Shown here piece after piece: positions 27,682-56,492 of a stretch of 64,000 nt of DNA; the first letter of the stretch is position 1; the number at the start of each line of letters is the position of its first letter. A program made the translations under genes and the position numbers. The notes under the pieces are model-generated. The model made no database searches and was not told the origin of the DNA. It saw only the letters and a program-made list of their open reading frames with translations. The stretch lies in NCBI RefSeq assembly GCF_014842925.1, contig NZ_JACYXJ010000004.1:310001-374000 (forward strand), given 5' to 3'. The DNA comes from Roseibium polysiphoniae. GTDB taxonomy: Bacteria > Pseudomonadota > Alphaproteobacteria > Rhizobiales > Stappiaceae.

Positions 27682-28760
27682 TGTCTGATCCGCTGACGGG
27701 AGCTCACGCAGGCAAGGCGATCCGGCTGGAGAACGTCAGCAAGCTGTTCGGTGAAAGCCGGGCCGTGGATGATGTCTCGATCGAGATTCCTGCCGGTTCC
27801 TTCACGGTTCTGCTGGGGCCGTCTGGCTGCGGCAAGTCGACGACCCTGCGCATGATCGCAGGTCTTGAAGGCACTGACGAAGGCAGGATTTTCATTGGCG
27901 GAGATGATGTCACGGGCAAGCCGTCGTCCAAGCGCGACATCTCCATGGTCTTCCAGTCCTATGCGCTTTTCCCGCATCTGAGTGTCGCCGAGAACATCAT
28001 TTTCGGGCTCAGGGTGCGCAAGGTCGATGCGAGAGAACGCAGAGAGAAACTGGCGCGTGTCGCGGACCTTCTGGGTCTGAGCGAGCTCTTGGAGCGCAAG
28101 CCGGCGCAGCTCTCCGGCGGACAGCAGCAGCGCGTGGCGCTGGGGCGCGCCATCATCGGCGAAAAGCCGGTCTGCCTGATGGATGAACCGCTGTCCAATC
28201 TTGATGCGAAACTCCGGCACGAGATGCGTGTGGAACTTCGCGGCCTTCAGCAGCGCCTGGGCTTCACCATGGTCTACGTCACCCATGATCAGGTCGAAGC
28301 GATCACGATGGCGGATCAGGTGGTGCTTTTGAATGCTGGTCGCGCGGAGCAGGCGGCGACGCCTCGTGATCTCTATGAGCGGCCTGCAACGCCTTTCGCA
28401 GCACGCTTTATTGGCACGCCGCCCATGAACCTCATCCCCATGTCGGCGATCGAGCCGCTTCAGGACATGCCGACCGGGCTCTTGCTCGGTGTGCGTCCCG
28501 AAGCCTTGTGCCTGGCAGATGACGGAGGTCTGAGCGGCACCGTTCGCTCCGTTGAATATCTGGGCGCCGATACCCTGGCCGACTGCGAGGTCTCGGGCTC
28601 CCTGTTTCAGGTTCGCCTGCCCGGGTCGCGCTCTGTCTCCACGGGCGAGGCCTTGCGCTTCACCGCATCGACTGCGGATCTCCATGTTTTCGATCGGCTC
28701 TCCGGCGGACGCCGGGATGACCTGATCCCAGAAATCGGATCGCGATTGCGGCCCCAATAG
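27678..28760 (+). CDS. ugpC: UgpC-like ABC transporter ATP-binding protein
   Basis: ATPase of 360 residues with Walker A GPSGCGKST, Q-loop FQSYALFPH, signature LSGGQQQR, Walker B CLMDEPLSNLD, H-loop VTHDQVEA and a TOBE domain. Its position directly after a GlpR-like regulator and before a UgpB-like binding protein points to glycerol-3-phosphate or a related glycerol or sugar ligand. The order C-B-A-E differs from the E. coli ugpBAEC operon. Confidence 0.82.
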   Translation: MMSDPLTGAHAGKAIRLENVSKLFGESRAVDDVSIEIPAGSFTVLLGPSGCGKSTTLRMIAGLEGTDEGRIFIGGDDVTGKPSSKRDISMVFQSYALFPHLSVAENIIFGLRVRKVDARERREKLARVADLLGLSELLERKPAQLSGGQQQRVALGRAIIGEKPVCLMDEPLSNLDAKLRHEMRVELRGLQQRLGFTMVYVTHDQVEAITMADQVVLLNAGRAEQAATPRDLYERPATPFAARFIGTPPMNLIPMSAIEPLQDMPTGLLLGVRPEALCLADDGGLSGTVRSVEYLGADTLADCEVSGSLFQVRLPGSRSVSTGEALRFTASTADLHVFDRLSGGRRDDLIPEIGSRLRPQ

Positions 28761-28823
28761 CTGTGCTGTCGGGCGCAGACGACGCGCTTCATGCGCGAAG
28801 GCTCAAACCAAGGAAGTTTTGAG

Positions 28824-30107
28824 ATGATTAAGTCCACATTCCTTAAGGCCGTTGCTGCAACGGCTCTTTCTGTCAGCACCTGGGCGTCTGCCCATGCGGT
28901 TGACCTGCAGTTCTATTTCCCGGTCGCAGTTGGCGGAAAGGCTGCCGATACCATTCAGGCTCTGACCGATGAATATGTTGCGGCCAATCCTGACGTGAAG
29001 ATCGACGCTGTCTACGCCGGGTCCTATCAGGACACGGTTGCCAAGGCGATCACCGCTTCGCGTGGCGGCAACCCGCCTCAGCTGTCTGTGATCCTGTCGG
29101 TCGACATGTTCACGCTGATCGACGAAGACCTGATCCAGCCGTTTGACAACTATCTGACGACGGATGAGGACAAGGCCTGGGTTGACGGCTTCTATCCAGC
29201 GTTCATGGAAAACAGCCAGACAGGTGGCAAGACCTACGGCATTCCTTTCCAGCGTTCGACGCCAGTTCTTTACTGGAACAAGGAAGCTTTCAAGGAAGCC
29301 GGTCTTGATCCTGAAGTCGCTCCGGCGACCTGGGACGAAATGGTCGAGTTCGGAAAGAAGCTGACCAAGAAAGACGCTGACGGCAAGGTCTCTCAGTGGG
29401 GCGTTCGCATCCCGTCTTCCGGTTTCCCTTACTGGCTGTTCCAGGGTCTTGCGATCGAAAACAGCGCGACCCTTGCCAATGCTGAAGGCAACAAGACCAA
29501 CTTCGATGATCCGAAGGTCGTTGAAGCGCTTCAGTACCTCGTCGACCTGAGCACCAAGCACGAAGTGATGGCTCCTGGCATCATCGAGTGGGGCGCAACT
29601 CCGAAGGCATTCTTCGAAGGTCAGACAGCCATGATGTGGACTTCCACGGGCAACCTGACCAACGTTCGTGACAACGCTCCGTTCGACTTCGGCGTTGCCA
29701 TGCTGCCGTCCAAGGAAACCCGCGGTGCACCGACTGGTGGCGGTAACTTCTATCTGTTCAAGGGCGCTTCCGACGAGCAGAACAAGGCGGCTGTCGAGTT
29801 CGTTCAGTGGATCACGGCTCCTGCCCAGTCTGCAAAGTGGACCATCGCAACCGGATATGTTGCCCCGCGCGCAGAGACCTGGGAAACCGAAACGATGAAG
29901 GCTTACACAGCTGACTTCGCTCCGGCCCTGATCGCCCGCGATCAGCTCGCGTTCGCGAAGGCCGAACTTTCGACCTACCAGAACCAGCGCGTCACCGGCA
30001 TCTTCAACGATGCACTGGCCTCTGTGATCACTGGCAAGAAAGACGCAGCGACCGCTCTCAAGGAAGCCCAGGCTCAGGCCGACGGCATCCTCTCCGAGTA
30101 CCGCTAA
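28824..30107 (+). CDS. ugpB: UgpB-like ABC substrate-binding protein
   Basis: Periplasmic binding protein of 427 residues with a signal peptide (MIKSTFLKAVAATALSVSTW ending AHA) and an extracellular solute-binding family 1 fold. VDLQFYFPVAVGGKAADTI, AVYAGSYQDT, GIPFQRSTPVLYWNKEAF and the hinge near PTGGGNFYLF resemble UgpB proteins. The start at 28824 follows AAGGAAG and opens the signal peptide. The ligand is inferred from the GlpR neighbour as glycerol-3-phosphate or a glycerophosphodiester; another polyol or sugar remains possible. Confidence 0.8.
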   Translation: MIKSTFLKAVAATALSVSTWASAHAVDLQFYFPVAVGGKAADTIQALTDEYVAANPDVKIDAVYAGSYQDTVAKAITASRGGNPPQLSVILSVDMFTLIDEDLIQPFDNYLTTDEDKAWVDGFYPAFMENSQTGGKTYGIPFQRSTPVLYWNKEAFKEAGLDPEVAPATWDEMVEFGKKLTKKDADGKVSQWGVRIPSSGFPYWLFQGLAIENSATLANAEGNKTNFDDPKVVEALQYLVDLSTKHEVMAPGIIEWGATPKAFFEGQTAMMWTSTGNLTNVRDNAPFDFGVAMLPSKETRGAPTGGGNFYLFKGASDEQNKAAVEFVQWITAPAQSAKWTIATGYVAPRAETWETETMKAYTADFAPALIARDQLAFAKAELSTYQNQRVTGIFNDALASVITGKKDAATALKEAQAQADGILSEYR

Positions 30108-30115
30108 ATCCCATG

Positions 30116-30147
30116 AAGACCGGGCGGCGTCCGCTGCCCGGTCTTTG
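30116..30147 (+). terminator. Hairpin after ugpB
   Basis: AAGACCGGGC (30116-30125) pairs with GCCCGGTCTT (30136-30145), extendable inward, followed by a short T run. It lies in the 69-bp ugpB-ugpA gap and probably reduces permease expression relative to binding protein. Confidence 0.72.
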
Positions 30148-30176
30148 TCTCAAGACGTGAACTGACGGACCTTGCC

Positions 30177-31061
30177 ATGCGGGTGACATTCAAACGGGAC
30201 TGGATTCATAGCTGGCTGCTGTTGCTGCCGGCGATGGTGTTCCTCTTTGCCTTTACCCATATTCCGGCGGTCACGACCTTCATCAACAGCTTCTATTCAA
30301 CGCCGCGCGGTCGCAGGCCTGCCAAATTCATCGGTCTGGAAAACTACGAGCGGCTTTGGGACGACCCGGTGTTCTGGAAGGTTATGTTCAATAACCTCTG
30401 GTTCGCGCTGGGGACGATTCCGCTTTCGATTGCGCTTTCGATCGCGATGGCCCTTTGGGTGAATGACAAGCTCGCCGGGCGAAGCCTGGTGCGCATGGCC
30501 TACTTCACCCCCACCGTCCTGCCCCTGATTGCTGTCGCCAATATCTGGCTGTTTTTCTACACGCCGGGCTTCGGCCTTTTCGATCAGGTCTTCGGAGCTC
30601 TCTTTGGCTGGTCAAGCACCAACTGGCTTGGTGATCCGGCGACGGCACTGAACGCCGTCATTGTGGTGACAGTCTGGAAAGAGGCCGGATTCTTCATGAT
30701 TTTCTATCTCGCGGCCTTGCAGGCGATCCCCGTTTCGCTCGTCGAGGCCGCAAGGATTGAAGGCGCAAGCCGCTGGACGATTTTCTGGCGGATCACGTTC
30801 CCGCTTTTGATGCCGACGACGCTATTCGTCTCGATCAACGCGGTGATCAATTCGTTCCGGCTGGTGGACCATATTTTCATTCTGACCGATGGCGGTCCGG
30901 ACAACGCTTCATCGCTTTTGCTGTTTTACATCTATGAAGTGGCGTTCCGGTTCTGGGAGACCGGCTATGCGGCAACCTTGACCGTCGCCTTGCTGCTGCT
31001 GTTGTCGGCGCTCGCGATTGGGCAGTTCTTCTTCTTCGATCGCAAGGTGCACTACAAATGA
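30177..31061 (+). CDS. ugpA: UgpA-like ABC transporter permease
   Basis: Inner-membrane permease of 294 residues with six hydrophobic helices and the EAA loop VSLVEAARIEGASRWTIF. The start SWLLLLPAMVFLFAFTHIPAV and the segment HIFILTDGGPDNAS are typical of UgpA/MalF-like subunits. It overlaps the next permease by 4 bp (ATGA). Confidence 0.87.
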   Translation: MRVTFKRDWIHSWLLLLPAMVFLFAFTHIPAVTTFINSFYSTPRGRRPAKFIGLENYERLWDDPVFWKVMFNNLWFALGTIPLSIALSIAMALWVNDKLAGRSLVRMAYFTPTVLPLIAVANIWLFFYTPGFGLFDQVFGALFGWSSTNWLGDPATALNAVIVVTVWKEAGFFMIFYLAALQAIPVSLVEAARIEGASRWTIFWRITFPLLMPTTLFVSINAVINSFRLVDHIFILTDGGPDNASSLLLFYIYEVAFRFWETGYAATLTVALLLLLSALAIGQFFFFDRKVHYK

Positions 31062-31879
31062 GTTGGTCTGGTCCCACGCTCGATCGTGTCCTGAACACAG
31101 CTGCTGCCTGGACGCTGGCGCTGTTGTGGATCCTTCCGCTTGCCTATGCGATCTGGACAGCCTTTCATCCCGCGGCCTATGAAGCGCGTTTCGTCCTGAC
31201 GGCGCCGTTGACCATGGATAATTTCGCCAAAGCCTGGTCCGCCGCGCCATTCGCGCGCTATTTCCTGAACACGTTTGTTCTCGTCAGCCTCATTCTTGCC
31301 GGCCAGTTTTTCCTTTGTACGCTCGCTGCCTATGCCTTCGCACGCTTCGAATTTCCGGGGCGCTCGCTGCTGTTTTCGCTCGTGTTGCTGCAGCTTCTGG
31401 TGATGCCGGACATTCTGATCGTCGAGAACTACAAGACCATGCGGCTGCTGGACCTTGTCGATACGATCCCGGCAATCGCATTGCCGTATCTGGCAAGCGG
31501 GTTCGGCATTTTCCTGTTGCGCCAGACCTTCATGACGATCCCTAAGGAGCTGGATGAGGCGGCGCGGATTGAAGGTGCTTCCTTCCTGGGTGTGCTCTGG
31601 CGGGTCTATATCCCGCTCGCCAAGCCAACCTATCTTGCCTATGGACTCGTTTCGGTCAGCCACCACTGGAACAATTTTCTCTGGCCGTTGATCGTGACCA
31701 ATTCAGTCGACACACGCCCGGTGACTGTTGGCCTGAGTATCTTCTCAGCAATCGACAGCGGCGTTGAATGGTCGGTGATCAATGCGGCCACGCTGATGAC
31801 CAGCGGACCATTGCTTATCGCCTTCCTGCTGTTCCAGCGGCAATTCGTTCAAAGCTTCATGCGCGCAGGCATCAAGTAG
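31058..31879 (+). CDS. ugpE: UgpE-like ABC transporter permease
   Basis: Second permease, MalG/UgpE-like, 273 residues, six hydrophobic helices, EAA loop PKELDEAARIEGASFLGVL. It closes the glpR-ugpCBAE-like operon and is convergent with fhuF, whose stop lies 11 bp away. No clear terminator is visible in that short gap. Confidence 0.87.
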   Translation: MSWSGPTLDRVLNTAAAWTLALLWILPLAYAIWTAFHPAAYEARFVLTAPLTMDNFAKAWSAAPFARYFLNTFVLVSLILAGQFFLCTLAAYAFARFEFPGRSLLFSLVLLQLLVMPDILIVENYKTMRLLDLVDTIPAIALPYLASGFGIFLLRQTFMTIPKELDEAARIEGASFLGVLWRVYIPLAKPTYLAYGLVSVSHHWNNFLWPLIVTNSVDTRPVTVGLSIFSAIDSGVEWSVINAATLMTSGPLLIAFLLFQRQFVQSFMRAGIK

Positions 31880-31890
31880 CGCTTTCGGTA

Positions 31891-32673
31891 CTACTTGCTT
31901 GCGCCCAGCACGAGCGGGCGGCGGTCGTTGCCGTAGGTTGGCTTCAAGGAGCAGTCCTGACAGCGCGCGACGCCCTCAAGGCCGTATCTCAGGCAGCAGA
32001 CGCGGCGCGTTCTGGTGGCTTCGGAGCCGGAGGGGCGATAGGGGCTGAACAGCGGATTGCGGTTGCCATCCGGCTTTTTCGGGCTGCCGGTGATTGCTTT
32101 CAGATCGATGTCCTGGCTGCCGCTCCACAGGACCTCATGGGTGTAGTCGATGACGACGGCTGCGTTCATCCAGAACACTTTGGCGGAAACGCCACTTCGG
32201 GCCGACAGTGAGAAGACAAGCGGGGACAGGTGACCATCGATCAGGGGTGCGAGCCGATCGAAGGGTGTGTCCGTATCCAAAGCTGGGGCGACATAGGGAT
32301 CGGTTAGTTCAAACCCCCGCGGCTGACCGGAGGCATCCAGCGCGAGACGCAGATTGGCAAGAGATGCGGGCAGCTGGGACCTAGCCGCGCCGGCCAAGAG
32401 TATCAGCGGTGGCAGCAGAAGGCCAAAGTACCATTGGGACCAGTAGGAGACGGATGATCTCGCGTCATCGCCGGGAAAGCTGGTCTCCGCATAAAAATCA
32501 AGAAGGTGCTTGAGGCTCGCGGGATCGGTGAGATCCGAGCATCTGCGGCCCTTGTCAGAATCGGGCGTGATCGCAAAACGCTCTCCGAGATGCGCCGCGT
32601 GGCCGTGAAACAGGCCGTCCATATAATCGCGCAGATCAATCTGGTCATCGGGGCAGGGCTCTGCGCCTGGCAT
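31891..32673 (-). CDS. fhuF: Siderophore-iron reductase FhuF-like [2Fe-2S] protein
   Basis: Cytosolic ferric-siderophore reductase of 260 residues. The C-terminus carries the unusual FhuF cluster motif C-C-x10-C-x2-C (in VCCLRYGLEGVARCQDCSL), which binds a [2Fe-2S] centre. The central hydrophobic stretch WYFGLLLPPLILL is also family-typical. It probably releases iron from a hydroxamate siderophore made by the locus starting 7 kb to the right. It stands alone between two glycerol-type transporter operons. No TGA-N9-TCA box lies upstream. Confidence 0.88.
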   Translation of the reverse strand: MPGAEPCPDDQIDLRDYMDGLFHGHAAHLGERFAITPDSDKGRRCSDLTDPASLKHLLDFYAETSFPGDDARSSVSYWSQWYFGLLLPPLILLAGAARSQLPASLANLRLALDASGQPRGFELTDPYVAPALDTDTPFDRLAPLIDGHLSPLVFSLSARSGVSAKVFWMNAAVVIDYTHEVLWSGSQDIDLKAITGSPKKPDGNRNPLFSPYRPSGSEATRTRRVCCLRYGLEGVARCQDCSLKPTYGNDRRPLVLGASK

Positions 32674-33164: not shown

Positions 33165-34901
33165 ATGAAACAGAGATTCTTGTCCGCGGTGGCCGCCGCG
33201 GCAGTGCTCTCCTATGCCGGTCAGGCTTTTGCCGGCATGGACGAAGCAAAAACCTGGGTGGAGAATGAATTCCAGCCGTCCGTTCTGTCGCAGGACGAGC
33301 AGATGGCCGAAATGGAGTGGTTCGTCAACGCAGCCGGTCCGTTCCAGGGTATGGAAATCAATGTGTTGTCGGAAGGCATCCCGACACACACTTATGAATC
33401 CAAGACCCTGACGAAAGCCTTCGAGGAAATCACCGGCATCAAGGTCAACCACCAGATCCTCGGCGAAGGTGAAGTGGTGCAGGCTGTTCAGACGCAGATG
33501 CAGACGAACCGGAACCTCTATGACGCCTATGTCAACGATTCCGATCTCATTGGCACCCATTCGCGTCTTCAGCTCGCTGTCAATCTGACCGACTGGATGG
33601 CGGGTGAAGCCAAGGATGTGACGTCTCCGACGCTCGACCTTGAAGACTTCATGGGCGTGAGCTTCACAACCGGTCCGGATGGTGATCTCTACCAGCTGCC
33701 AGATCAGCAGTTCGCGAACCTCTACTGGTTCCGCAAGGACTGGTTCGACCGCGAAGATTTCCAGAAGGCATTCAAGGAAAAATACGGCTACGATCTCGGT
33801 GTTCCAGTCAACTGGTCTGCCTATGAAGACATTGCCGAGTTCTTTTCCAAGGACGTCAAGGAAATCGACGGCGTCACGATCTACGGCCATATGGACTACG
33901 GCAAGCGTGCACCGGATCTCGGCTGGCGCATGACCGATGCCTGGCTTTCCATGGCTGGCGCCGGTTCGCCGGGTGAGCCAAACGGTCGTCCGATCGATGA
34001 ATGGGGCATCCGTATGGAAGCGGATTCCTGCAACCCTGCCGGCGCAAGCGTGTCGCGCGGCGGTGGCACCAACGGCCCGGCTGCTGTCTACGCCATCCGC
34101 AAGTGGGACGAGTGGCTTCGGAATTATGCGCCTCCAGGCGCTGCCGATTACGACTTCTACCAGTCGCTTCCTGCTCTGAGCCAGGGCAATGTTGCGCAGC
34201 AGATCTTCTGGTACACCGCGTTCCTGGCCGACATGGTCAAGCCGAAGTCCGAAGGCAACAACACGGTTGATGATGCCGGTATGCCGTTGTGGCGCATGGC
34301 TCCGTCGCCCCATGGTCCTTACTGGCAGGAAGGTCAGAAGGTTGGCTATCAGGACGTTGGATCCTGGACGATCCTCAAGTCCACACCGACCGATCGTGCC
34401 AAGGCTGCATGGCTCTATGCCCAGTTCGTGACTTCCAAGACTGTTGACACGAAGAAGAGCCATGTTGGTTTGACCTTCACCCGCGACAGCACGGTTCGCC
34501 ACGAGAGCTTCACCGAACGTGCACCAAAGCTCGGCGGCGTGGTTGAGTTTTATCGCTCGCCGGATCGTGTTCGCTGGTCGCCGACGGGTGTCAACGTGCC
34601 GGACTATCCGAAGCTGGCCCAGCTATGGTGGCAGCAGATCGGTGATGTGAACTCCGGTGCGTTCACGCCTCAGGAAGCGATGGACCGTCTTGCAAGCGAG
34701 ATGGACCAGGTGATGGCCCGCATGCAGCGTGCGGATGAAGCCAACAACACCTATGGCGGCTGCGGCCCTCGCCTCAATGAGGAGAAGGATCCGTCAGAGT
34801 GGCTCGGAAAGGGCGGCGCAAAAGCCAAGCTCGACAACGAGAAGCCACAGGGCGAAACCATCGCCTATGACGAGTTGATCGCACAGTGGAACGCTAACTA
34901 A
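33165..34901 (+). CDS. glpV: Glycerol-type ABC transporter substrate-binding protein
   Basis: Large periplasmic binding protein of 578 residues. A signal peptide (MKQRFLSAVAAAAVLSYAGQ ending AFA) leads into a mature protein with GMEINVLSEGIPTHTYESKTL, LYQLPDQQFANLYWF and GGGTNGPAAVYAIRKW, matching the GlpV proteins of rhizobial glycerol importers (about 570 residues, longer than ordinary family 1 binding proteins). The ATG at 33165 is preceded by GGGAGGAAATT; the upstream extension to 32985 is rejected. The neighbours GlpS, T, P, Q and U complete the known set. Confidence 0.85.
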   Translation: MKQRFLSAVAAAAVLSYAGQAFAGMDEAKTWVENEFQPSVLSQDEQMAEMEWFVNAAGPFQGMEINVLSEGIPTHTYESKTLTKAFEEITGIKVNHQILGEGEVVQAVQTQMQTNRNLYDAYVNDSDLIGTHSRLQLAVNLTDWMAGEAKDVTSPTLDLEDFMGVSFTTGPDGDLYQLPDQQFANLYWFRKDWFDREDFQKAFKEKYGYDLGVPVNWSAYEDIAEFFSKDVKEIDGVTIYGHMDYGKRAPDLGWRMTDAWLSMAGAGSPGEPNGRPIDEWGIRMEADSCNPAGASVSRGGGTNGPAAVYAIRKWDEWLRNYAPPGAADYDFYQSLPALSQGNVAQQIFWYTAFLADMVKPKSEGNNTVDDAGMPLWRMAPSPHGPYWQEGQKVGYQDVGSWTILKSTPTDRAKAAWLYAQFVTSKTVDTKKSHVGLTFTRDSTVRHESFTERAPKLGGVVEFYRSPDRVRWSPTGVNVPDYPKLAQLWWQQIGDVNSGAFTPQEAMDRLASEMDQVMARMQRADEANNTYGGCGPRLNEEKDPSEWLGKGGAKAKLDNEKPQGETIAYDELIAQWNAN

Positions 34902-34996: not shown

Positions 34997-36064
34997 ATGT
35001 CTCTTGAACTCATCGATGTTTCGAAGCGCGTCGGCGTTGAGCAACATATCTATCCGACCAACCTGACGCTCGAAGCCGGCGGGATGAACATTCTTCTCGG
35101 CACGACTTTGTCGGGCAAGACCACCTTGATGCAGCTGATGGCCGGGCTGGACAAGCTTACGACCGGCTCGATCCGCTTCAATGGCGAGGACGTGACCCGG
35201 ACCGCTGTTCAAAAGCGCAATGTGTCGATGGTCTACCAGCAGTTCATCAACTATCCGAATTTCAGCGTGTTCGAGAACATCGCATCCCCCTTGCGGGTGG
35301 CCCGCATGGCCGAGGACGAGATCAAGCGCCGCGTGTGCGAGATGGCCGAGTTGCTCAAGCTGTCAGGCATGCTCGACCGGCGTCCGTCAGAACTTTCCGG
35401 TGGCCAGCAGCAGCGCACAGCGATGGCGCGCGCGTTGGTCAAGGACGCAGATCTGGTTCTCCTGGATGAGCCGCTCGCCAATCTGGATTTCAAGCTCCGC
35501 GAGGAATTGCGCGACGAGCTGCCGCGATTGTTCGCGAACCGTGAGTGTGTGGTCGTTTATGCCACAACCGAACCTGTCGAGGCCCTGTTGTTTGGTGGGA
35601 AGACGGCAACCCTGCACAAGGGCCGTGTGACCCAGTTCGGCCCAACGGGCGACGTCTACCGCAAGCCGCAAGATCTTGTCAGTGCCGAGGTGTTTTCCGA
35701 GCCGCCGATCAATCATGCGCAGGTGACCAAAAATGGTGAGACGCTGACGCTGGTCAGTGGCGCCAGCTGGTCCGCGACCGGACAAGCTGCCGCCTTGCCA
35801 GATGGCACTTACACCCTCGGTCTTCGACCGCACCATGTGACGCCGGCTCAATCGGGAAGCCAGCCGGTCGAGGTTGATGGAAACGTTATGGTGACGGAAC
35901 TCAGCGGTTCCGAAAGCGTGGTGCATTTTCATCTGGGTGGACGGACCTGGGTGTCCCAGTCCCACGGCATACATCCGTTTGAAGTCGGGGAGCAGGCGAC
36001 ACTCTATGCAGATGTGTCTCAGGCCTTTTACTTCGATGCCTCCGGCGCATTGATTGCTGGCTGA
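34997..36064 (+). CDS. glpS: Glycerol-type ABC transporter ATPase GlpS (H-loop degenerate)
   Basis: ATPase subunit of 355 residues. Walker A GTTLSGKTT is at 35-43, Q-loop glutamine near 81, an intact signature LSGGQQQR at 133-140, Walker B VLLDEP with glutamate 158, D-loop NLD. The H-loop, normally VTHDQ, reads ATTEP, so threonine 191 stands where the catalytic histidine is expected. A TOBE-like domain follows. Its partner GlpT has the opposite defect (intact histidine, degenerate signature), so the heterodimer should have one competent and one degenerate ATP site. It follows glpV in the operon. Confidence 0.87.
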   Translation: MSLELIDVSKRVGVEQHIYPTNLTLEAGGMNILLGTTLSGKTTLMQLMAGLDKLTTGSIRFNGEDVTRTAVQKRNVSMVYQQFINYPNFSVFENIASPLRVARMAEDEIKRRVCEMAELLKLSGMLDRRPSELSGGQQQRTAMARALVKDADLVLLDEPLANLDFKLREELRDELPRLFANRECVVVYATTEPVEALLFGGKTATLHKGRVTQFGPTGDVYRKPQDLVSAEVFSEPPINHAQVTKNGETLTLVSGASWSATGQAAALPDGTYTLGLRPHHVTPAQSGSQPVEVDGNVMVTELSGSESVVHFHLGGRTWVSQSHGIHPFEVGEQATLYADVSQAFYFDASGALIAG

Positions 36065-36097
36065 CGCGCAAGCGAAACGAATTGGGAGACTGCCTTC

Positions 36098-37162
36098 ATG
36101 GCAAAAATCACGCTCAAGGGCTTGCGCCACAGTTACAAGCCGGATCCGCAGGAGGATGCGGACTATGCGTTGCAGCAGCTCGACGTGGACTGGGAAGATG
36201 GCGGTGCCTACGCGCTTCTCGGCCCATCAGGCTGTGGTAAGACCACGCTGCTGAACATCATTTCCGGCCTTCTGACGCCGAGCCACGGTCAGGTGATCTT
36301 CGGCGACAAGGACGTGACCCAGCTGCCGCCGGACCAGAGACATATCGCGCAGGTGTTCCAGTTCCCGGTCGTCTACGACACGATGACCGTTTACGACAAT
36401 CTGGCGTTCCCTCTGCGCAATCGCGGCGTTCCGGAAGCAGAGGTCGACAAACGCGTCCGCGAGATCGCCGAAATGATCGACCTGACCGCGACACTGGACA
36501 ATCGTGCCTCTGGCCTGACGGCCGATGGCAAGCAGAAGATTTCCCTGGGCCGGGGGCTCGTGCGGACGGACGTCAATGTCATCATGTTCGACGAACCGTT
36601 GACCGTGATCGATCCGCACCTGAAGTGGCAACTTCGGTCCAAGCTCAAGGAGCTTCACCAGCGGGTCCGGACAACGATGATTTATGTGACCCATGACCAG
36701 ACCGAGGCACTGACCTTCGCAGACAAGGTCGTGGTCATGAAGGACGGTCAGGTGGTTCAGATCGGAACGCCGGTGGAACTCTTCGAAAGACCGCAGCATA
36801 CCTTTGTCGGCCACTTCATCGGGTCGCCGGGCATGAACGTGATGCCATGCGAAGTTCGCGGCGGAAAGGCCTTCTACCAGGACACGGAAATTTCCAGCTG
36901 GAATGCGGCATCCTGTACGGATGCCTCTGACCTGGAGCTCGGTGTCCGGCCGGAGTTCGTGGAATTCGGCCCCACCGGCGTCCCCGTCGAGGTCGCCAAG
37001 GTTTCCGATGCCGGCCGGTTCCGGATCGTCGACACCCGCAAGGGAGATCAGAGCATCAAGCTGTTGGTGCCTGAAGGCGGTGAGATTCCGGAAGGAAATG
37101 CATTCCTGCAGTTCGCGCAAGACCACACGCAGGTCTACCGCGACGGTTGGCTGATGAGTTGA
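36098..37162 (+). CDS. glpT: Glycerol-type ABC transporter ATPase GlpT (signature degenerate)
   Basis: Second ATPase, 354 residues. Walker A GPSGCGKTT at 42-50, Q-loop FQFPVVYD, Walker B VIMFDEP with glutamate 166, H-loop VTHDQTEA with histidine 199, and a TOBE-like C-terminus. The ABC signature, normally LSGGQ, reads LTADG at 140-144, and the D-loop reads VID instead of NLD. Together with GlpS this leaves the composite site built from GlpT Walker motifs and the GlpS signature as the likely working site. GGGAGACTG provides the ribosome site in the 33-bp gap after glpS. Confidence 0.87.
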   Translation: MAKITLKGLRHSYKPDPQEDADYALQQLDVDWEDGGAYALLGPSGCGKTTLLNIISGLLTPSHGQVIFGDKDVTQLPPDQRHIAQVFQFPVVYDTMTVYDNLAFPLRNRGVPEAEVDKRVREIAEMIDLTATLDNRASGLTADGKQKISLGRGLVRTDVNVIMFDEPLTVIDPHLKWQLRSKLKELHQRVRTTMIYVTHDQTEALTFADKVVVMKDGQVVQIGTPVELFERPQHTFVGHFIGSPGMNVMPCEVRGGKAFYQDTEISSWNAASCTDASDLELGVRPEFVEFGPTGVPVEVAKVSDAGRFRIVDTRKGDQSIKLLVPEGGEIPEGNAFLQFAQDHTQVYRDGWLMS

Positions 37163-37172
37163 GGACAAAGCC

Positions 37173-38036
37173 ATGAACAAGACAGAAAACCAGAAAGCCT
37201 GGCTCTTCGTCCTCCCGGTGGTCCTGCTGGTCGCGTTCAACGCGGTCATCCCGCTGATGACGGTCGTGAACTATTCGGTCCAGGAAACCTTTGGCGACAA
37301 CACGTTCTTCTGGGCCGGAGTGATCTGGTTCCAGGACGTGCTGAATTCGGATCGCTTCCACGCATCCCTTGGCCGGCAAATGATCTTCACCTTCTCGATC
37401 CTGGCCATCGAGATTCCACTGGGTGTTCTGATCGCGCTGACCTTGCCGCGAAAAGGCCCATGGGTGCCGGTGTGCCTGGTGCTCATGGCTCTGCCCCTGC
37501 TGATCCCCTACAATGTGGTCGGCGCAATGTGGAACATCTTTGCGCTCCCGGATATCGGCCTTCTGGGTTACGGTTTGAACGCACTGGGCTTCGACTATAA
37601 TTTCACTCGTCAGCCGGGAGATGCGTGGTTCACGCTGATCCTGATGGACGTGTGGCACTGGACATCTCTGGTGGTGCTTCTAGCCTATGCGGGTCTGGTA
37701 TCCATCCCCGACGCTTACTACCAGGCGGCCAAGATTGACGGCGCCAAGTCCTTCGCGATCTTCCGCTATATCCAGCTGCCGAAAATGAAGCGGGTGCTGA
37801 CCATCGCCGTGCTCTTGCGGTTCATGGACAGCTTCATGATCTACACGGAGCCTTTCGTTCTGACGGGCGGCGGGCCGGGCAACTCCACGACCCTTCTGTC
37901 GGTCGATCTTGTGAAGATCGCGCTGGGCCAGTTCGATCTGGGTCCTGCTGCGGCGATGTCGCTGATCTATTTCCTCATCATTCTGCTTTTGAGCTGGGTC
38001 TTCTACACTCTCATGATGCGAAACGAGGCCAACTGA
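37173..38036 (+). CDS. glpP: Glycerol-type ABC transporter permease GlpP
   Basis: Inner-membrane permease of 287 residues, six hydrophobic helices, MalF-like. The periplasmic stretch SVQETFGDNTFFWAG and the EAA loop (DAYYQAAKIDGAKSFAIF) resemble GlpP of rhizobial glycerol transporters. It lies 10 bp after glpT and its stop overlaps the glpQ start by one base (TGATG). Confidence 0.88.
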   Translation: MNKTENQKAWLFVLPVVLLVAFNAVIPLMTVVNYSVQETFGDNTFFWAGVIWFQDVLNSDRFHASLGRQMIFTFSILAIEIPLGVLIALTLPRKGPWVPVCLVLMALPLLIPYNVVGAMWNIFALPDIGLLGYGLNALGFDYNFTRQPGDAWFTLILMDVWHWTSLVVLLAYAGLVSIPDAYYQAAKIDGAKSFAIFRYIQLPKMKRVLTIAVLLRFMDSFMIYTEPFVLTGGGPGNSTTLLSVDLVKIALGQFDLGPAAAMSLIYFLIILLLSWVFYTLMMRNEAN

Positions 38037-38836
38037 TGAAAAACCCAAGCCGCTTCGTTCCGGCCCTCTATATTTTCTTCCTGATGTTGCCGATCTACTG
38101 GCTCATCAACATGTCGTTCAAGACGACCAACGAGATTCTCGGCTCGTTCTCGCTCTGGCCGCGAGAGTTCACGACCGAGAACTATGTCGCGATCTTCACA
38201 GACCCAACCTGGTATATGGGCTATGTGAACTCGCTGGCCTATGTCTCGCTTAACACTGTCCTGTCGGTGTCTGTGGCGCTTCCGGCGGCCTATGCCTTTT
38301 CGCGCTATCGTTTCCTGGGCGACAAGCATCTGTTCTTCTGGCTGTTGACCAACCGAATGGCCCCTCCGGCGGTCTTTGCCCTGCCGTTCTTCCAGCTCTA
38401 TTCGGCCGTTGGACTGTTCGATACCTATTGGGCAGTCGCGCTTGCCCACACGCTGTTTAACATCCCGCTGGCGGTCTGGATCCTGGAAGGGTTCATGTCC
38501 GGGGTGCCTAAGGAGCTCGATGAGACAGCCTATGTTGACGGCTATTCCTTCCCGCGATTTTTTGTGAAGATCTTCATTCCCACAATTGCAGCCGGGATCG
38601 GCGTTGCTGCCTTCTTCTGCTTCATGTTCTCCTGGGTTGAGCTGTTGCTGGCCAAGACGCTGACATCGGTGGCTGCCAAGCCTATCGCGGCTGTCATGAC
38701 ACGAACGGCTAGCACGTCAGGTTACGAGTTGGGGCTTCTTGCGGCAGCGGGAACACTGACCATCATCCCCGGTGCCTTTGTCATCTACTTCGTTCGCAAC
38801 TACATCGCCCGGGGCTTTGCCCTCGGCAGGGTCTGA
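38036..38836 (+). CDS. glpQ: Glycerol-type ABC transporter permease GlpQ
   Basis: Second permease, MalG-like, 266 residues, six hydrophobic helices, EAA loop PKELDETAYVDGYSFPRF. The conserved start PSRFVPALYIFFLMLPIYWL fits the family. Despite the shared symbol this is the permease of the GlpSTPQ importer, not the periplasmic glycerophosphodiesterase GlpQ of enteric bacteria. Confidence 0.88.
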   Translation: MKNPSRFVPALYIFFLMLPIYWLINMSFKTTNEILGSFSLWPREFTTENYVAIFTDPTWYMGYVNSLAYVSLNTVLSVSVALPAAYAFSRYRFLGDKHLFFWLLTNRMAPPAVFALPFFQLYSAVGLFDTYWAVALAHTLFNIPLAVWILEGFMSGVPKELDETAYVDGYSFPRFFVKIFIPTIAAGIGVAAFFCFMFSWVELLLAKTLTSVAAKPIAAVMTRTASTSGYELGLLAAAGTLTIIPGAFVIYFVRNYIARGFALGRV

Positions 38837-38849
38837 GGAGGATATCGCC

Positions 38850-39131
38850 ATGGGTCTTTCATGGATGGCCTGGACCTGGCCGACTGCTGCGTTCTTCTGT
38901 TTCGTCGCTCTGGCAATCGCGACGATGGGCGTTTGGGAGTATTTCTCGCCAGGCGGTGGTCCTCGCGACGGCGTTCTCGGACTTCACACCACGCGCGGAG
39001 ACCGTCTGTTCATCTCCCTGCTGGGCAGTGCCTTCATCTTCCTCGCGTGGCTGGGATTGATCGGAACGCCACTTTGGGCGCCGCTTGCGATTGCCATCGT
39101 TTACGGCCTGGCGGTGTTCCGCTGGGTCTGA
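38850..39131 (+). CDS. glpU: Small membrane protein of the glycerol transporter operon (GlpU, DUF2160)
   Basis: A 93-residue protein with three hydrophobic segments (FFCFVALAIATMGVWEYF, LFISLLGSAFIFLAWLGLI, LWAPLAIAIVYGLAVF) and a conserved GLHTTRGDRLF loop, matching DUF2160 proteins encoded next to glpSTPQV in rhizobia. Its role is unknown; it may stabilise the permease complex. GAGGAGGATATCGCC is a strong ribosome site for the ATG at 38850. It closes the operon 13 bp after glpQ and is convergent with the siderophore-interacting protein gene. Confidence 0.85.
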   Translation: MGLSWMAWTWPTAAFFCFVALAIATMGVWEYFSPGGGPRDGVLGLHTTRGDRLFISLLGSAFIFLAWLGLIGTPLWAPLAIAIVYGLAVFRWV

Positions 39132-39141
39132 GGCTCGAGCT

Positions 39142-40221
39142 TCAGGCGGTGCCTTTGGCATCGCCCGAGCGGCCGCGCTTCCAATAGGAAATCGCGTATT
39201 GCCGCCCTTTGCCGAGCCCAAACTCCTGCTTGAAGACTTTTCGCAGTGACTGGGCATTGTCGTGCTCGCCGGCAAACCAGCAAAAGTCCGGCGCGCAGTC
39301 ACCGGCGAGGGCTTTCAAGCTGCCTTCGACCTTTTCAGGGAAGTCCTTCGAATCCAGGCACGTGATTGGCAACGTGGTCTCAGGAAAATAGTCGAGGCTC
39401 GCCTCCGGCAGGGCGGTGACCACGTGACCCGTGCAGGTCTTGGGAAGGGTCCCAAGAAGGTGTGCAAGGGCCGGCAGAGCGGTCTCGTCGGCGGCCAGCA
39501 AGACGGATTGGCACTCTTGCGGCACCCTTTCGCCGCCACCCGGGCCCATAAGGCCAATGGTGTCTCCCTCGATGGCTCTTTCGGCCCAATCGGCGATCAT
39601 CCCACCCTGATGGCGAACGATGTCGATATCGACTTCAGTCAGGTATGCCCGAACGTCTTTCAGTGTGTAGTAGCGCACGTGAAGCTCGTCTTCTCCCTTC
39701 GGCCAAAGCGTGGCCCCATTGGAAGCGACATGAGGCCATTGCGGTGCACGCGTGGCATCCGATGGCAACATAAGCTTGACGTGAATGCCGCCCTTTTGGA
39801 GTGAGTTTGCGGTTTTGCAGGCAAAGGTCAGGCGCAACATGCCGGGGAAGATCTCGCTCTTCCCGGACATCTGCAACAGGTGAAAGTTCGGCGGCCTGAT
39901 ATCGTCACTTGCGCCTTCACTTTGACGATCGTCGCTCCAGCGGATCGATGCGGCTGCTTCCGGTGTGAGTTCCTCCAGATGCCGCACCACGCCCTCCTTG
40001 AAAACGAAGAGCTTGTTGGGGCTGGGCGCCGAAACGGCGAAGGTCAGTGTTTGAGGCGCCTGGGAAACCAGGATCCGACTGTCCTCATCGATCGGGATCA
40101 GGACACTGCCATCGCCCTGATCAACGTGGTTCAGATCGTGGCTCTTGAGGTGCTCCAAAAGCGCGCCGAGAACAGATCCTGGATCAGCAACGACAACAGT
40201 CGTTTGGGCTTCGAGGCTCAT
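39142..40221 (-). CDS. Siderophore-interacting FAD reductase with N-terminal DUF2218
   Basis: Cytosolic ViuB/SIP-type ferric-siderophore reductase of 359 residues. Residues about 1-95 form a DUF2218 domain. From about 115 follows the SIP FAD-binding barrel with RYYTLKDVR and the phosphate loop block GDTIGLMGPGGG, then the SIP NAD(P)H domain with LAADETALPALAHLL and a terminal CWFAGEHDNA and YWKRG. It would reduce the imported ferric-siderophore and release iron. The start overlaps the RhtX-like gene stop by 4 bp, so the two are coupled. It is functionally redundant with FhuF. Confidence 0.9.
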   Translation of the reverse strand: MSLEAQTTVVVADPGSVLGALLEHLKSHDLNHVDQGDGSVLIPIDEDSRILVSQAPQTLTFAVSAPSPNKLFVFKEGVVRHLEELTPEAAASIRWSDDRQSEGASDDIRPPNFHLLQMSGKSEIFPGMLRLTFACKTANSLQKGGIHVKLMLPSDATRAPQWPHVASNGATLWPKGEDELHVRYYTLKDVRAYLTEVDIDIVRHQGGMIADWAERAIEGDTIGLMGPGGGERVPQECQSVLLAADETALPALAHLLGTLPKTCTGHVVTALPEASLDYFPETTLPITCLDSKDFPEKVEGSLKALAGDCAPDFCWFAGEHDNAQSLRKVFKQEFGLGKGRQYAISYWKRGRSGDAKGTA

Positions 40222-41510
40222 GACGCAGCCTCGTTCTGGGCCGTATTCTGGCGAAGCGATTTCCCTGATCTGCCTGGCAGAAGCTTGATTGTCGCCAGCA
40301 CCGCGAGGCCCGACAGCACGGCGGCCAGCACGAAGAGACCGTCATATCCGAAGTGGTCCGCGATCATGCCGGACGTCATGGAGCCGATCAGATAGACAAT
40401 CAGCTGAGCGCAGGCCAGCAGGGTGAAATCTGTTCCCGGCTGCGACCTGGAGGCGACGCTCATGAAGAGCGAGTACAGAATGACGATTTCCATGTAGCGA
40501 ATGAAGGTCTGGAACGCAGCTGCCGACATCACCGTCCAAAGGGGCTCGTAGATCCCCAGCGCTTGCAGGGCGAAGGCGGTGAAACAGATGGTGCGCAAAA
40601 GGCCAAGAATGATCAGCGACCTGTTGGCTCCTTGCCACTTGATCAGGCCAACGGCGATGACCGACCCGACGATGCCTGCTGTGGCGGCAGAGCCTCCGGA
40701 CAGATAGCCGATCCAGGAAAGAGACAGGCCGACGTCGACGAGATAGGGGCCTTCCATCGCCTTGACCAGGCCTTCGCTTGCCCGAAAGACCAGCGCAATG
40801 AAAAAGATCTGGACCGCTTCCGGACGCATGAAAAACGCACGCAGCGATGGTTTTGAAATTGCTTTCTCTTCGGCATCAGATGGCTGAGGTTCCGCCGCTC
40901 GTTCCCGCATCAGGGGCGTAACGAGCAGGGGCAACAGAGACAAGGCGGCGACAAAGAGAAGTGTCGGTGTCCATCCATAGGTCTCAAACAGAATAAGGGA
41001 CAGGGTGCCTCCGATCACGACGCCGAGGGCGACTGCACCGCCTTGAAAGGCGTTGCCGATGCCTCTGTCTTTTTCCGAAAGACTGTTGGTCGCGTAGCCG
41101 TCTGTCGCAATGTCCTGTACCGACATGGCCAGCGCCATCGTCAGACAAACCACGAAGAGCCCTGTGACATTCGTTGGTTCGATGAACGCCAGGACCGCGA
41201 TGCCAGATGCCGTGACCAGCTGCATGGGAACGATCCAGCCGCGCCGGTGTCCGATCTTGAGAAATCTGAAGCGGTCGATGAACGGAGCCCAGAGGAACTT
41301 GAGCACCAAGGGTAACATGAGGAGGGAGAAAAAGCCGATCGCGCTCCGGGAAACACCTGCCTCACGCAGGACCGGAGGAAGGGCCGCCGCAATGAGGTAG
41401 GTTGGAATACCTTGTGCCAGGTACAGGCCGCCAAGCGTTGCAAACAGGCGGTAACGTTCGGCGTTTCCGGCGGGATCTGTTCCCTTGAGCTTGGCTCTCG
41501 ACAGACGCAT
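40218..41510 (-). CDS. rhtX: RhtX/FptX-like MFS siderophore importer
   Basis: Inner-membrane carrier of 430 residues with about 12 helices. The start YLAQGIPTYLIAAALPPVLREAGVS and LWAPFIDRFRF are characteristic of the AmpG-related RhtX/FptX family, single-protein transporters that bring ferric-siderophores (rhizobactin, pyochelin) from periplasm to cytosol without ATP. An in-frame TTG at 41573 is rejected in favour of the ATG at 41510. It sits downstream of the TonB receptor gene behind a terminator-like hairpin and is coupled to the reductase gene, giving receptor, carrier and reductase in order. Confidence 0.85.
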   Translation of the reverse strand: MRLSRAKLKGTDPAGNAERYRLFATLGGLYLAQGIPTYLIAAALPPVLREAGVSRSAIGFFSLLMLPLVLKFLWAPFIDRFRFLKIGHRRGWIVPMQLVTASGIAVLAFIEPTNVTGLFVVCLTMALAMSVQDIATDGYATNSLSEKDRGIGNAFQGGAVALGVVIGGTLSLILFETYGWTPTLLFVAALSLLPLLVTPLMRERAAEPQPSDAEEKAISKPSLRAFFMRPEAVQIFFIALVFRASEGLVKAMEGPYLVDVGLSLSWIGYLSGGSAATAGIVGSVIAVGLIKWQGANRSLIILGLLRTICFTAFALQALGIYEPLWTVMSAAAFQTFIRYMEIVILYSLFMSVASRSQPGTDFTLLACAQLIVYLIGSMTSGMIADHFGYDGLFVLAAVLSGLAVLATIKLLPGRSGKSLRQNTAQNEAAS

Positions 41511-41555
41511 GGCTGGCTCATTTTCAAAAGTGTCGAGGGTAGGCCCTCGGAAAGG

Positions 41556-41583
41556 AAAAACCGCAGGCGCCAAGCGCCCGCGG
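41556..41583 (-). terminator. Intrinsic terminator after the TonB receptor gene
   Basis: On the minus strand CCGCGGGCG and CGCCTGCGG pair over 9 bp (one G-T) around a CTTGG loop and are followed by five T residues. It lies 15 bp after the receptor stop and should limit read-through into the rhtX-like gene. Confidence 0.82.
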
Positions 41584-41597
41584 TCAACGTTGATGAC

Positions 41598-43769
41598 TTA
41601 GAACTTGACCTGGTAAGACAGGGCAATGGTCCGGCCGAGACCTGCGACACTGATGCCGCGCGTGGCAGTCGCCGTCGGGTTGATGTAGTCGGTATCAAGA
41701 ATGTTGCGAACGCCGAGTGAGAGCTTTCCGTTGTTCTCGAAGGTTTTCGCGACGGCGGCGTTCAGCAGGACAGCACCATCGATCTTGTTGTCTATGTCGC
41801 GAGATCTGCCGGAGAAGAATTCGACTTCTGCGCGGGCAGTGATGTCGTGCTCAAAGTTCATTGTGCTGTACAAGAGGCCCTTGAACGTCGTCGGAATGCG
41901 GTTGTTCGGCAGATAACTGTCGAACTCGCCATCATCATCCGTGTCGTATTGGCCTTCCGAATATGCCAGTACGCTGCCAACGGTCATCCAGTCCAGGACA
42001 TGTGCTTCTCCGTTGAACTCGACGCCCCAGAGTCGCTCTTTCTGCTGCGAGACGCTGTTGGACGAGATGTCAAAGGTCGTGCCCTTGTCGGATGTCGAGA
42101 AATAGGCGCTCAGGTTCGCGCGGAACATGTCCCAATCACCACGCAGGCCGATCTCGTAGGTGTTCACAAGCTGAGGCTCGGGGGAGATGTCTGAAAAGCT
42201 CGTCGTGCCGCTACCGGTACAGACACCGGCAATGCCGGAGATCGAGCAAAGCTCAGCGGTGGTGTTTGCACCCGCACGGCGTGTAAACGCGCCGACGTCC
42301 GCCAAAGCGTAGCCTTGAGAAAAGTTGCCGTAGGCCTGCATTTCCTCAGTGACGTCAAACACGCCGCCGATGTTGAAGGTCCACTGATTGTAGCTGAAGT
42401 CGCCGCCGGTCACATCGACCGCGCCAATGGTCGCGACCGGCAAGCCGAGGCTCGACAGCAGGTTGGTCTGCGATTCTGGGCGCGTGAAATCGTCGACACT
42501 CAGGAAGAACTGGTCGAACCTGGCACCCGCCTGCATGCGGAAACGGTCGACGATCGGAATTTCAGCCTGAGCAAAGCCGGCGATCTGGTTTTGTGTCATG
42601 GGTGCGATGACATCTGCGCCACCGATGGTTTCCTGCGTGGTCCGATCGAAGGTATAATCGACTCCCCAAGTGACGTTTGAGCCTTCTGTAAGGAAATCCA
42701 GAGCGCTGTTGACCGAGGCGTTCAAGCCGGCGCGATCGCCGTAAAGAACTGTCTGATTGTCCGATGTATAGACAAAGGTGTTCACGCTCGAGAGCTCGGT
42801 CATGAGTGACTGCTTCTCGATGTGATTGTAGAACGCCTTGACTTCCAGACTGCCCAGAGAAAAGTCGGCATCCGTGTAGCGGGCAGTGAAATACTGGGAG
42901 TTCTCTTCCAGCGGCTCGCCGTCATATGGATTGGAGTAGTCGGGAACAGATGTGCCGGTGGAGTAGTCCGTGTACCAGTCAGGATCCTGGCGGGCGTAGC
43001 TGAGGTCGGCACTTATTTCGAAGCGCTTGGCGTCTGTCTCGTAGCCGATGACGCCAAATGCTTCGCCTTCGCTGATACGGTCCGCGCCGCCCTGTCCAAG
43101 CATGCCATCCGATGCGAGCTCGTTGCCGGCTCCATCATAGGTGCGTCTGCTGAAGTCACCTGAGAGAGAGAAGAAGTAGTCGAATTTGCCGTTACGACCC
43201 TCGACCGAGACATTTGCGTTAGGCGCAATCGATTCCGGCAGGTTCGCGGTAAAGGCGGTTGCGCCAACTGTTGCGGTGACATTGATGCCGTCTTCGACGC
43301 CGCGCTTGGTAATGATGTTGATTGTGCCGCCGGTCGCGCCTGCACCGTAGAGACTGGAGGCGCCATTGACGACCTCGATGCGGGCAATGTTTTCCATGTT
43401 GATCAGGGACAGAATGCGCGAGTTGTTCCGCAGTGGTGTGTTGCGTGGAACGCCGTCGACCATGATCAGAACGCTGCGGCCGCGGAAGCTCTCGGACGCG
43501 CCCGAGATGGTCTGATTGCTCGGCGCGTAGCCGGGCACCAGCCGAGACACAAGATCGGAGGTGTCTGTAGCGAGGATCTTCGTTTCCTCGATCTGCTCTT
43601 CAGAAATGATCTCGACCGACTGTGCGACAGTCCCGAGGGACCCTTCGCTACGGTTTGCCGTCACAACAATCTGATCAAGAAAGACGCTCTCGCCGGAGTT
43701 GTCCTGAGCGTGTGCTGGCAGCGTGCACAATGCCGTGCTCGCCCACAGAATGCAGGATCTGATTTTCAT
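41598..43769 (-). CDS. TonB-dependent ferric-siderophore receptor
   Basis: Outer-membrane receptor of 723 residues. A signal peptide (MKIRSCILWASTALCTLPAH ending AQA-like) is followed by a TonB-box-like ESVFLDQIVVTA, the plug domain with VLIMVDGVPRN and IEVVNGASSLYGAGATGG, then a 22-strand barrel ending in the classical aromatic YQVKF. The plug and position next to NIS synthetase genes suggest a hydroxamate-citrate siderophore such as aerobactin, schizokinen or rhizobactin 1021 (IutA/RhtA type). A TGA-N9-TCA palindrome lies 94 bp upstream, predicting iron repression. Confidence 0.92.
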   Translation of the reverse strand: MKIRSCILWASTALCTLPAHAQDNSGESVFLDQIVVTANRSEGSLGTVAQSVEIISEEQIEETKILATDTSDLVSRLVPGYAPSNQTISGASESFRGRSVLIMVDGVPRNTPLRNNSRILSLINMENIARIEVVNGASSLYGAGATGGTINIITKRGVEDGINVTATVGATAFTANLPESIAPNANVSVEGRNGKFDYFFSLSGDFSRRTYDGAGNELASDGMLGQGGADRISEGEAFGVIGYETDAKRFEISADLSYARQDPDWYTDYSTGTSVPDYSNPYDGEPLEENSQYFTARYTDADFSLGSLEVKAFYNHIEKQSLMTELSSVNTFVYTSDNQTVLYGDRAGLNASVNSALDFLTEGSNVTWGVDYTFDRTTQETIGGADVIAPMTQNQIAGFAQAEIPIVDRFRMQAGARFDQFFLSVDDFTRPESQTNLLSSLGLPVATIGAVDVTGGDFSYNQWTFNIGGVFDVTEEMQAYGNFSQGYALADVGAFTRRAGANTTAELCSISGIAGVCTGSGTTSFSDISPEPQLVNTYEIGLRGDWDMFRANLSAYFSTSDKGTTFDISSNSVSQQKERLWGVEFNGEAHVLDWMTVGSVLAYSEGQYDTDDDGEFDSYLPNNRIPTTFKGLLYSTMNFEHDITARAEVEFFSGRSRDIDNKIDGAVLLNAAVAKTFENNGKLSLGVRNILDTDYINPTATATRGISVAGLGRTIALSYQVKF

Positions 43770-43863
43770 GGATGCCCACCCAATAAGGTTTTATTTTCAA
43801 GGAATTGGGTGGCTCGATAGCGGCTGCAGTCTGGCTTCCCGTTAAATCTACATCAATCATACA

Positions 43864-43878
43864 TGAATAATTTATTCA
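43864..43878. promoter_or_regulatory. Iron-responsive operator (RirA-type) for the TonB receptor
   Basis: TGAATAATTTATTCA is a 15-bp palindrome, apart from its central base, matching the RirA IRO pattern TGA-N9-TCA. It lies between the iucC-like stop and the receptor start, in the receptor promoter region. Confidence 0.8.
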
Positions 43879-43957
43879 AGTTTATACACTGTAAATTGTA
43901 CGGTTTGGTTGTGTTGTTGCAGATCGGACACATTGGAAAACCCCAGATAGAACTGTC

Positions 43958-56400: not shown

Positions 56401-56460
56401 GGCGGGTCTTTCGGCGAAGTCTTGGAGTTCCCGATGACGGGAGCCGTGATCTCGGGAGGT

Positions 56461-56492
56461 GAGCGCGGGCAAGGATCTCCTCGCCCGCGCTC
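56461..56492 (-). terminator. Hairpin after the BMP binding-protein gene
   Basis: Perfect 10-bp stem GAGCGCGGGC (56461-56470) / GCCCGCGCTC (56483-56492), directly after the binding-protein stop on the minus strand. No T tract follows. Confidence 0.7.

Follow-up and report, generated by a model that had tools for sequence, protein, structure and literature searches.

A conserved one-site pattern in the paired ATPases of a GlpSTPQUV-type CUT1 importer

The number of ATP hydrolysis events in an importer cycle has been much studied in MalFGK2, where a single gene supplies both sites and mutating one without the other is difficult. A locus of Roseibium polysiphoniae, in which two adjacent genes encode two different ATPases of the same subfamily, raises the question of how many ATP-splitting sites such an importer keeps. 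The locus lies in a window of 64,000 nucleotides (the whole stretch of DNA that was analysed; contig NZ_JACYXJ010000004.1), and an earlier sequence-only reading of this window had claimed that the defects of the two ATPases, GlpS and GlpT, fall in the same composite site and leave the other site intact. In this report, we confirm that this asymmetry is a real, conserved and family-wide one-site pattern in a CUT1-type importer, and we weigh what it may mean for ATP use.

A glycerol-type operon with two ATPase genes

The operon runs on the forward strand in the order V-S-T-P-Q-U, with one permease of an upstream operon before it. It comprises a GlpV-like substrate-binding protein of about 578 aa (33165..34901, from the ATG at 33165; Pfam SBP_bac_1), the CUT1-type ATPases GlpS (34997..36064, 355 aa; Pfam ABC_tran and TOBE_2) and GlpT (36098..37162, 354 aa; Pfam ABC_tran, with OB_MalK below its cut-off), a GlpP-like and a GlpQ-like permease (37173..38036 and 38036..38836, both Pfam BPD_transp_1) and a GlpU-like small membrane protein with DUF2160 (38850..39131, from an ATG within the listed ORF; PF09928, 120.5 bits). 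The full GlpSTPQUV-type gene set, with adjacent GlpS and GlpT, two permeases, a binding protein and a DUF2160 protein, is present in this one operon, which by resemblance would encode an importer of that type. The gene set is the same as that of the GlpSTPQUV glycerol importer of Rhizobium leguminosarum VF39 (PMC7912956), and the operon follows the order listed for SPO0608-0612, the 'glycerol ABC transporter' of Ruegeria pomeroyi (a binding protein, then two ATPases, then two permeases), in which SPO0608 is marked as mutant-confirmed (PMC9870897). By analogy with these relatives, the substrate would be glycerol; deletion of a related transporter in Cupriavidus metallidurans still allowed growth on glycerol (PMC7912956), so glycerol need not be the only or essential role of the transporter everywhere.

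DeoR- and GlpD-type genes stand before GlpS at one R. leguminosarum locus (L158), as told for VF39 (PMC7912956), whereas the window operon is without glycerol neighbours: no glpR, glpD or glpK lies directly beside it, and its neighbours are FhuF (31891-32673) and SIP (39142-40221). The FhuF-like gene and a siderophore set at 39142-45742, both on the reverse strand, flank the operon as if it were inserted in a siderophore cluster; the set consists of SIP, an MFS gene, an ORF resembling a TonB receptor by eye and IucA/IucC with a FhuF domain. Directly upstream, at 26722-31879 on the forward strand, lies a complete canonical importer with a DeoR regulator, a canonical CUT1 ATPase, a binding protein and two permease ORFs (the second recognized by eye); the DeoR gene at 26722 heads this separate operon.

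The passages that describe the VF39 and SPO0608-0612 importers make no mention of ATPase motifs (PMC7912956, PMC9870897). A search of the open-access literature by title, abstract start and passages returned no description of the GlpS/GlpT motifs; its scope was these motifs rather than the asymmetry of LivGF and UrtDE, and it did not extend to Ding et al. 2012. The latter is reportedly the founding paper on the VF39 GlpSTPQUV importer.

Composite sites and their conservation across the family

In a composite site, one chain contributes the A-, Q- and H-loops and Walker A/B and its partner the signature, with the D-loops in a central position (PMC7756269). In the window, GlpS has V12 at the A-loop position in place of an aromatic residue (35030..35032), a Walker A of GTTLSGKT at residues 35-42 (35099..35122) in which the middle glycine has become L38 while K41 and T42 are retained, Q81 in the Q-loop, an intact signature (LSGGQ, 35393..35407, within LSGGQQQR at 133-140), D157-E158 in Walker B, a D-loop of NLD at 162-164 and, within ATTEP at 189-193, T191 (35567..35569) where the H-loop histidine would stand. 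GlpT carries the Walker A GPSGCGKT at 42-49, Q88, D165-E166 and, within VTHDQ, the H-loop histidine H199 (36692..36694); its signature is altered to LTADGKQK at 140-147 (36515..36538) and its D-loop to VID at 170-172 (36605..36613), which sits centrally on the dimer interface. By the composite-site rule, the losses in the GlpS A-loop, Walker A and H-loop and in the GlpT signature thus fall in one composite site. The ORF positions and every residue named in the sequence-only reading are right (T191, LSGGQ at 133-137, H199, LTADG at 140-144, VID at 170-172, E158 and E166); V12 and L38, two additional losses on the GlpS side of the altered site, had been overlooked.

The conservation of this pattern was followed by two routes, a DUF2160 search over 299 Pseudomonadota genomes (56 positive) and a scan for GlpT in publicly available genome contigs, from which 80 loci were kept among at least 594 stretches listed; 11 of these 80 (L162-L172) proved to be other CUT1 ATPases and were assigned to that group in the counts. 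A GlpS search also covered 385 genomes of the class and found 46 positive; 35 of its 36 further positive genomes supplied extra loci. The resulting sample holds 160 GlpT loci, 159 of them with GlpS, and 157 distinct pairs, all from Pseudomonadota; the 69 taxon-assigned loci divide into 57 of Alphaproteobacteria and 12 of Gammaproteobacteria. Two short GlpT ORFs were counted because their motifs are covered (238 aa in L160; 203 aa in L161, at a contig end), and the GlpS of L122 was left out of the counts as a split gene: at L122:5784-6988, in Mesorhizobium sediminum, it appears as two overlapping ORFs, through a frameshift or a sequencing error.

DUF2160 serves as an anchor independent of the ATPases, and GlpS and DUF2160 occur in the identical 56 of the 299 genomes, with a GlpS/GlpT pair adjoining all 56 full-length DUF2160 places. 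A GlpS ORF stands directly beside GlpT on the same strand in 159 of 160 GlpT loci, most commonly in the gene orders S-T-P-Q-U-V (101 loci) and V-S-T-P-Q-U (33 loci).

The GlpS side of the altered site is nearly uniform. Among 159 sequences, the H-loop residue is Thr in 139 and Ser in 20 and never His, the A-loop residue is Val in 148 and aromatic in two (both Phe), and the middle residue of Walker A is Leu in 130, Gly in 15 and another in 14; the Walker A Lys and Thr, the Q-loop Gln and the Walker B Asp and catalytic Glu are each present in 159/159, as are LSGGQQQR and NLD. In the 160 GlpT sequences, the signature has Thr (127), Ser (27) or others (6) at position 2, Ala (141), Pro (17) or Val (2) at position 3, Asp (159) or Glu (1) at position 4, a variable position 5, Lys without exception at position 6 and Lys in 156 at position 8; LSGGQ occurs in none of the 160, and the D-loop is VID in 158, AID in one and VVD in one. 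The other composite site, made up of the GlpT Walker side and the GlpS signature, is canonical and invariant or nearly so in the 159 GlpS and 160 GlpT sequences: the GlpT Walker A glycines and Lys, the Gln, Asp, Glu and His are each found in 160/160, the A-loop is Tyr in 159 and Phe in one, and the last Walker A residue is Thr in 116 and Ser in 44. These residue counts bear out the claim of two defects in one site beside an intact one; the refutation named for it, that most species carry a GlpS histidine or a GlpT LSGGQ, is contradicted by counts of 0/159 and 0/160.

The altered residues are maintained while their codons change. The Thr of the T191 position is written by four codons in GlpS, and the residue at GlpT D143 is encoded by GAC in 105 sequences and GAT in 54, with one Glu; that synonymous codons vary while the altered residues stay points to selection that maintains them rather than to decay. 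'Degeneration', the word used in the sequence-only reading, is therefore a poor one for residues under such strong constraint, and its Rhizobiales framing was too narrow, as the pattern extends over alpha- and gammaproteobacterial loci. The proposed co-variation of T191 with LTADG is not visible, since both are nearly fixed; other small variation across the site is suggestive and is not significant on the tree. When the Walker A middle residue was compared with signature position 2 on a tree built without the motif columns, an average of 1.8 out of 6 independent pairs changed in the same direction and 0.1 in opposite directions (median p 0.5). Nine loci (L101-L104, L039, L041, L042, L106 and L109) combine a middle Gly in the GlpS Walker A and Ser at the H-loop with LSPDN or LAPDN in GlpT, which looks like a linked change across the site made up of few independent changes.

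The pair is set apart from its relatives. The 21 other CUT1-type ATPases from the surveyed loci are canonical at the catalytic positions, with Tyr, Phe or Trp at the A-loop in 21/21. A profile of 44 GlpS sequences, run over the 299 genomes with the six best candidates of each, gave 466 bits for the weakest GlpS versus 317 bits for the best other match, and 20 next-best matches, picked so as to include the top three, are canonical where parsed (the H-loop was parsed in 19/20, not in L216). We looked for half-degenerate intermediates and rejected them, given the gap of about 150 bits and the finding that none of the 20 picked non-GlpS matches is half-degenerate where parsed. In a quick tree of 80 rows, GlpS and GlpT each form one group (SH-aLRT 100) on a long stem; holding them as sisters gave a tree better by 12 log units (p-AU 0.776), a result with long branches that neither establishes nor refutes them as sisters. 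Distances within GlpS and within GlpT correlate with r 0.83 across 120 representatives, as expected of genes inherited together.

Outside Pseudomonadota, a glpSTPQUV cluster exists in Desulfobacterota (PMC11505543). At L173:3494-8971, a divergent operon with another gene order encodes a binding protein, two permeases, a GlpS-like and a GlpT-like ATPase, with zinc alcohol dehydrogenases flanking it; its ATPases show the same motif changes, and none of the ORFs of at least 80 aa matches the window DUF2160 protein, which makes the ATPase pair older or wider than the glycerol system. Four short DUF2160-like matches (L056-L059) each lie next to an importer whose permeases are related and whose one ATPase is canonical; these importers are possibly a homodimeric relative of the glycerol system.

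One hydrolysing site and the alternatives to it

With a probability of roughly 0.8, these data suggest an obligate heterodimer of GlpS and GlpT in which one site hydrolyses ATP and which would drive the CUT1-type importer. The direct basis of this reading is sequence, fixation across the family, constraint and the MalK-type fold predicted for each chain; from these we infer the dimer itself, its single hydrolysing site and about one ATP per cycle. Single-chain AlphaFold2 models (mean pLDDT 94.3 for GlpS and 90.8 for GlpT) predict a MalK-type fold and a C-terminal domain for both chains, with TOBE_2 over its cut-off in GlpS and OB_MalK below its own in GlpT, and the best Foldseek matches of both models are MalK-type ATPases. 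The nearest solved sequences are annotated as ATPases of sugar importers and similar systems, and the structure-sequence matches include no member of the GlpS/GlpT family.

On this basis, the A-loop, Walker A/B, Q-loop and H-loop of GlpT together with the GlpS signature would form a canonical site that hydrolyses ATP. The Walker side of GlpS and the LTADxKQK of GlpT would form a site that is without a catalytic histidine and a glycine-rich signature, and that probably binds nucleotide weakly or without turnover, with a possible structural or regulatory role; GlpS probably does bind nucleotide, as its Lys, Thr, Gln, Asp and Glu persist. In ABCB1, mutation of the catalytic Glu locks the conformation, and activity returns when additional changes loosen the ATP contact at that site (PMC7544095); by analogy, several changes at once in the GlpST site may prevent an ATP-locked state.

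The alternative that survives best, which we nevertheless regard as unlikely, is that both sites hydrolyse ATP, the GlpS site more slowly, with Thr191 or a water molecule acting for the histidine and with an unusual signature. All the Walker-side residues just named are invariant in 159/159 GlpS, so that slow hydrolysis there is conceivable, and a water relay without the H-loop His has been discussed (PMC6222333). The same source reports that H-loop mutants of HlyB, HisP and MalK (H192R) are left with less than 2% of ATPase activity, whereas the Pdr5 results are controversial and the H-loop rule is not absolute (PMC6222333). Against two working sites also stands the combination of losses, for the altered site is without the Ser-Gly-Gly of the signature and, nearly always, without the aromatic residue of the A-loop.

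It is very improbable that GlpS and GlpT homodimerise separately and serve different transporters. Canonical CUT1 ATPases such as MalK do, as is generally known, function as homodimers; however, a GlpS homodimer would have no His in either site and a GlpT homodimer no signature in either, so that the S:T pair alone gives a complete site, and glpS and glpT are adjacent in all but one of the 160 loci. The reading that the ATPases are decaying, or that GlpS is a pseudo-enzyme and does nothing at the nucleotide site, has a negligible standing: it can point to the variable positions (in GlpS the A-loop and the middle residue of Walker A, in GlpT position 5 of the signature), to the split GlpS of L122 and to the shortened GlpT ORF of L160, but it is ruled out by the fixation of nearly invariant altered residues across species, in alpha- and gammaproteobacteria alike, by synonymous codon change and by the invariant or nearly invariant residues of the intact site.

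The heterodimer with one hydrolysing site can be extended to a joint proposal, which we hold to be doubtful. The near-invariant Asp143 of GlpT, which we take to occupy the position of CFTR G551, would face the P-loop lysine of GlpS in place of the ATP gamma-phosphate; the site would work without turnover, or even without nucleotide, and this half of the dimer would close as a built-in hinge, at a cost of one ATP per molecule. Such engines would have been reached several times independently, by GlpST, LivGF, UrtDE and the CUT2 type. A pattern search for the EAA loops left 46 permeases of one type and 123 of the second unmatched, and hence does not bear on the pairing of permeases with ATPases.

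Asymmetric sites in other transporters

The sequence-only reading had treated this pattern as one known from exporters. Exporters do show it: TAP, TM287/288, CFTR and Pdr5 have one canonical and one degenerate composite site (PMC7756269). For Pdr5 and ABCB2/B3, turning the degenerate site back to consensus is reported to abolish or lower activity (PMC7756269). The restriction to exporters was too narrow, as the CUT2-type importers RbsA and NupO have one degenerate composite site in print (PMC11466899), and UrtDE and, where parsed, LivGF pairs are complementary. A degenerate importer site was thus already known (PMC11466899), and GlpST is a variant of such asymmetry in a CUT1-type importer.

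The variants differ in their make-up. All degenerate human sites have an altered signature, and Glu to Asp is their second most frequent change, with ABCG5/G8 as a case with another pattern (PMC7756269). The exporters named above work without a binding protein and often have a changed Walker B Glu (PMC7756269), whereas GlpS keeps this Glu, and a replaced catalytic Glu in the degenerate site is absent from all 159 GlpS. In RbsA and NupO, a single chain carries both ATPase domains, and its dead half is without the Walker A Lys that GlpS retains (PMC11466899). With MalFGK2 and other CUT1 importers, GlpST shares the ATPase fold, the TOBE domain (in GlpS), the permeases and the binding protein; 41 other CUT1-type ATPases are canonical where parsed, and GlpST consists of two diverged ATPases sharing one complete site.

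As a control, we compared 23 loci with two ATPase domains from the genome of the window (L060-L062 and L228-L247), with family names assigned by eye except for L228, L233, L234 and the fused ATPase of the window; L241, L246 and L247 were left out because their alignment was too poor. His and SGG are present in both domains of five separate pairs of Opp/Dpp- or phosphonate-like type (L060, L061, L062, L231 and L232) and of five fused ATPases (L236-L239 and L242), and these ten canonical controls indicate that two different ATPase domains do not always turn asymmetric. A fused ATPase at L240 (contig C4, 40400-42800) is again complementary: one half keeps SGG but has Asn at the position of the H-loop His, and the other half keeps His but reads MSNG. 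The window itself holds a CUT2-like fused ATPase on the reverse strand (54856-56472), whose nearest models, B6, AraG and RbsA, are all below cut-off; its second half has the Walker A GVSGNGQG and AQ at Walker B, with the acids lost, and its first half the signature LSVGE, which leaves one degenerate site. In the fused ATPases L243-L245, as in that of the window, the Walker side of the second half is dead, and the first half, read against it, carries an altered signature.

Six pairs of Liv/Urt type (L228, L229, L230, L233, L234 and L235) have Gln or Lys at the H-loop of the F/E-type chain, L234 reading EQH, and a non-consensus signature in the G/D-type chain in 5/6, the exception being L234 with LSGGQ. 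The G/D-type chains of the other five, and those of two wider sets (L248-L277 and L278-L307), have His with LAYG, LSYG, LSHG or LSRG where parsed. Among 30 UrtE loci (one being the window's genome again), 29 have two parsed ATPases, of which 27 were complementary at once and 2 on inspection; one locus with three matches was left unclassed. Of 30 LivF-type loci, 4 exceed the family cut-off; the F-type chain has SGG with EQ in all 30, and the LivG-type signature is LAYG or LSYG in 18, with 12 outside the pattern, which would catch LSGGQ if the segment is rightly placed. The complementary pattern is found in UrtDE and, as far as parsed, in LivGF pairs. Compared with GlpST, these belong to another ATPase subfamily with shorter chains, and have Gln rather than Thr/Ser at the H-loop and Tyr or His rather than Ala-Asp in the signature.

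The recurrence of the pattern in UrtDE, LivGF and CUT2-type systems suggests, at the level of sequence motifs, that importers with two different ATPase domains commonly have a single working site, and the asymmetry of GlpST is probably one case of this recurrent trend. Such recurrence cautions against assigning two ATP per substrate to importers of this kind. GlpST is a natural importer of the MalFGK2 subfamily in which one site has apparently been switched off by evolution, and because its sites come from different genes, single-site mutants would be simple to make; it thus offers a natural test of how many ATP-splitting sites such importers need.
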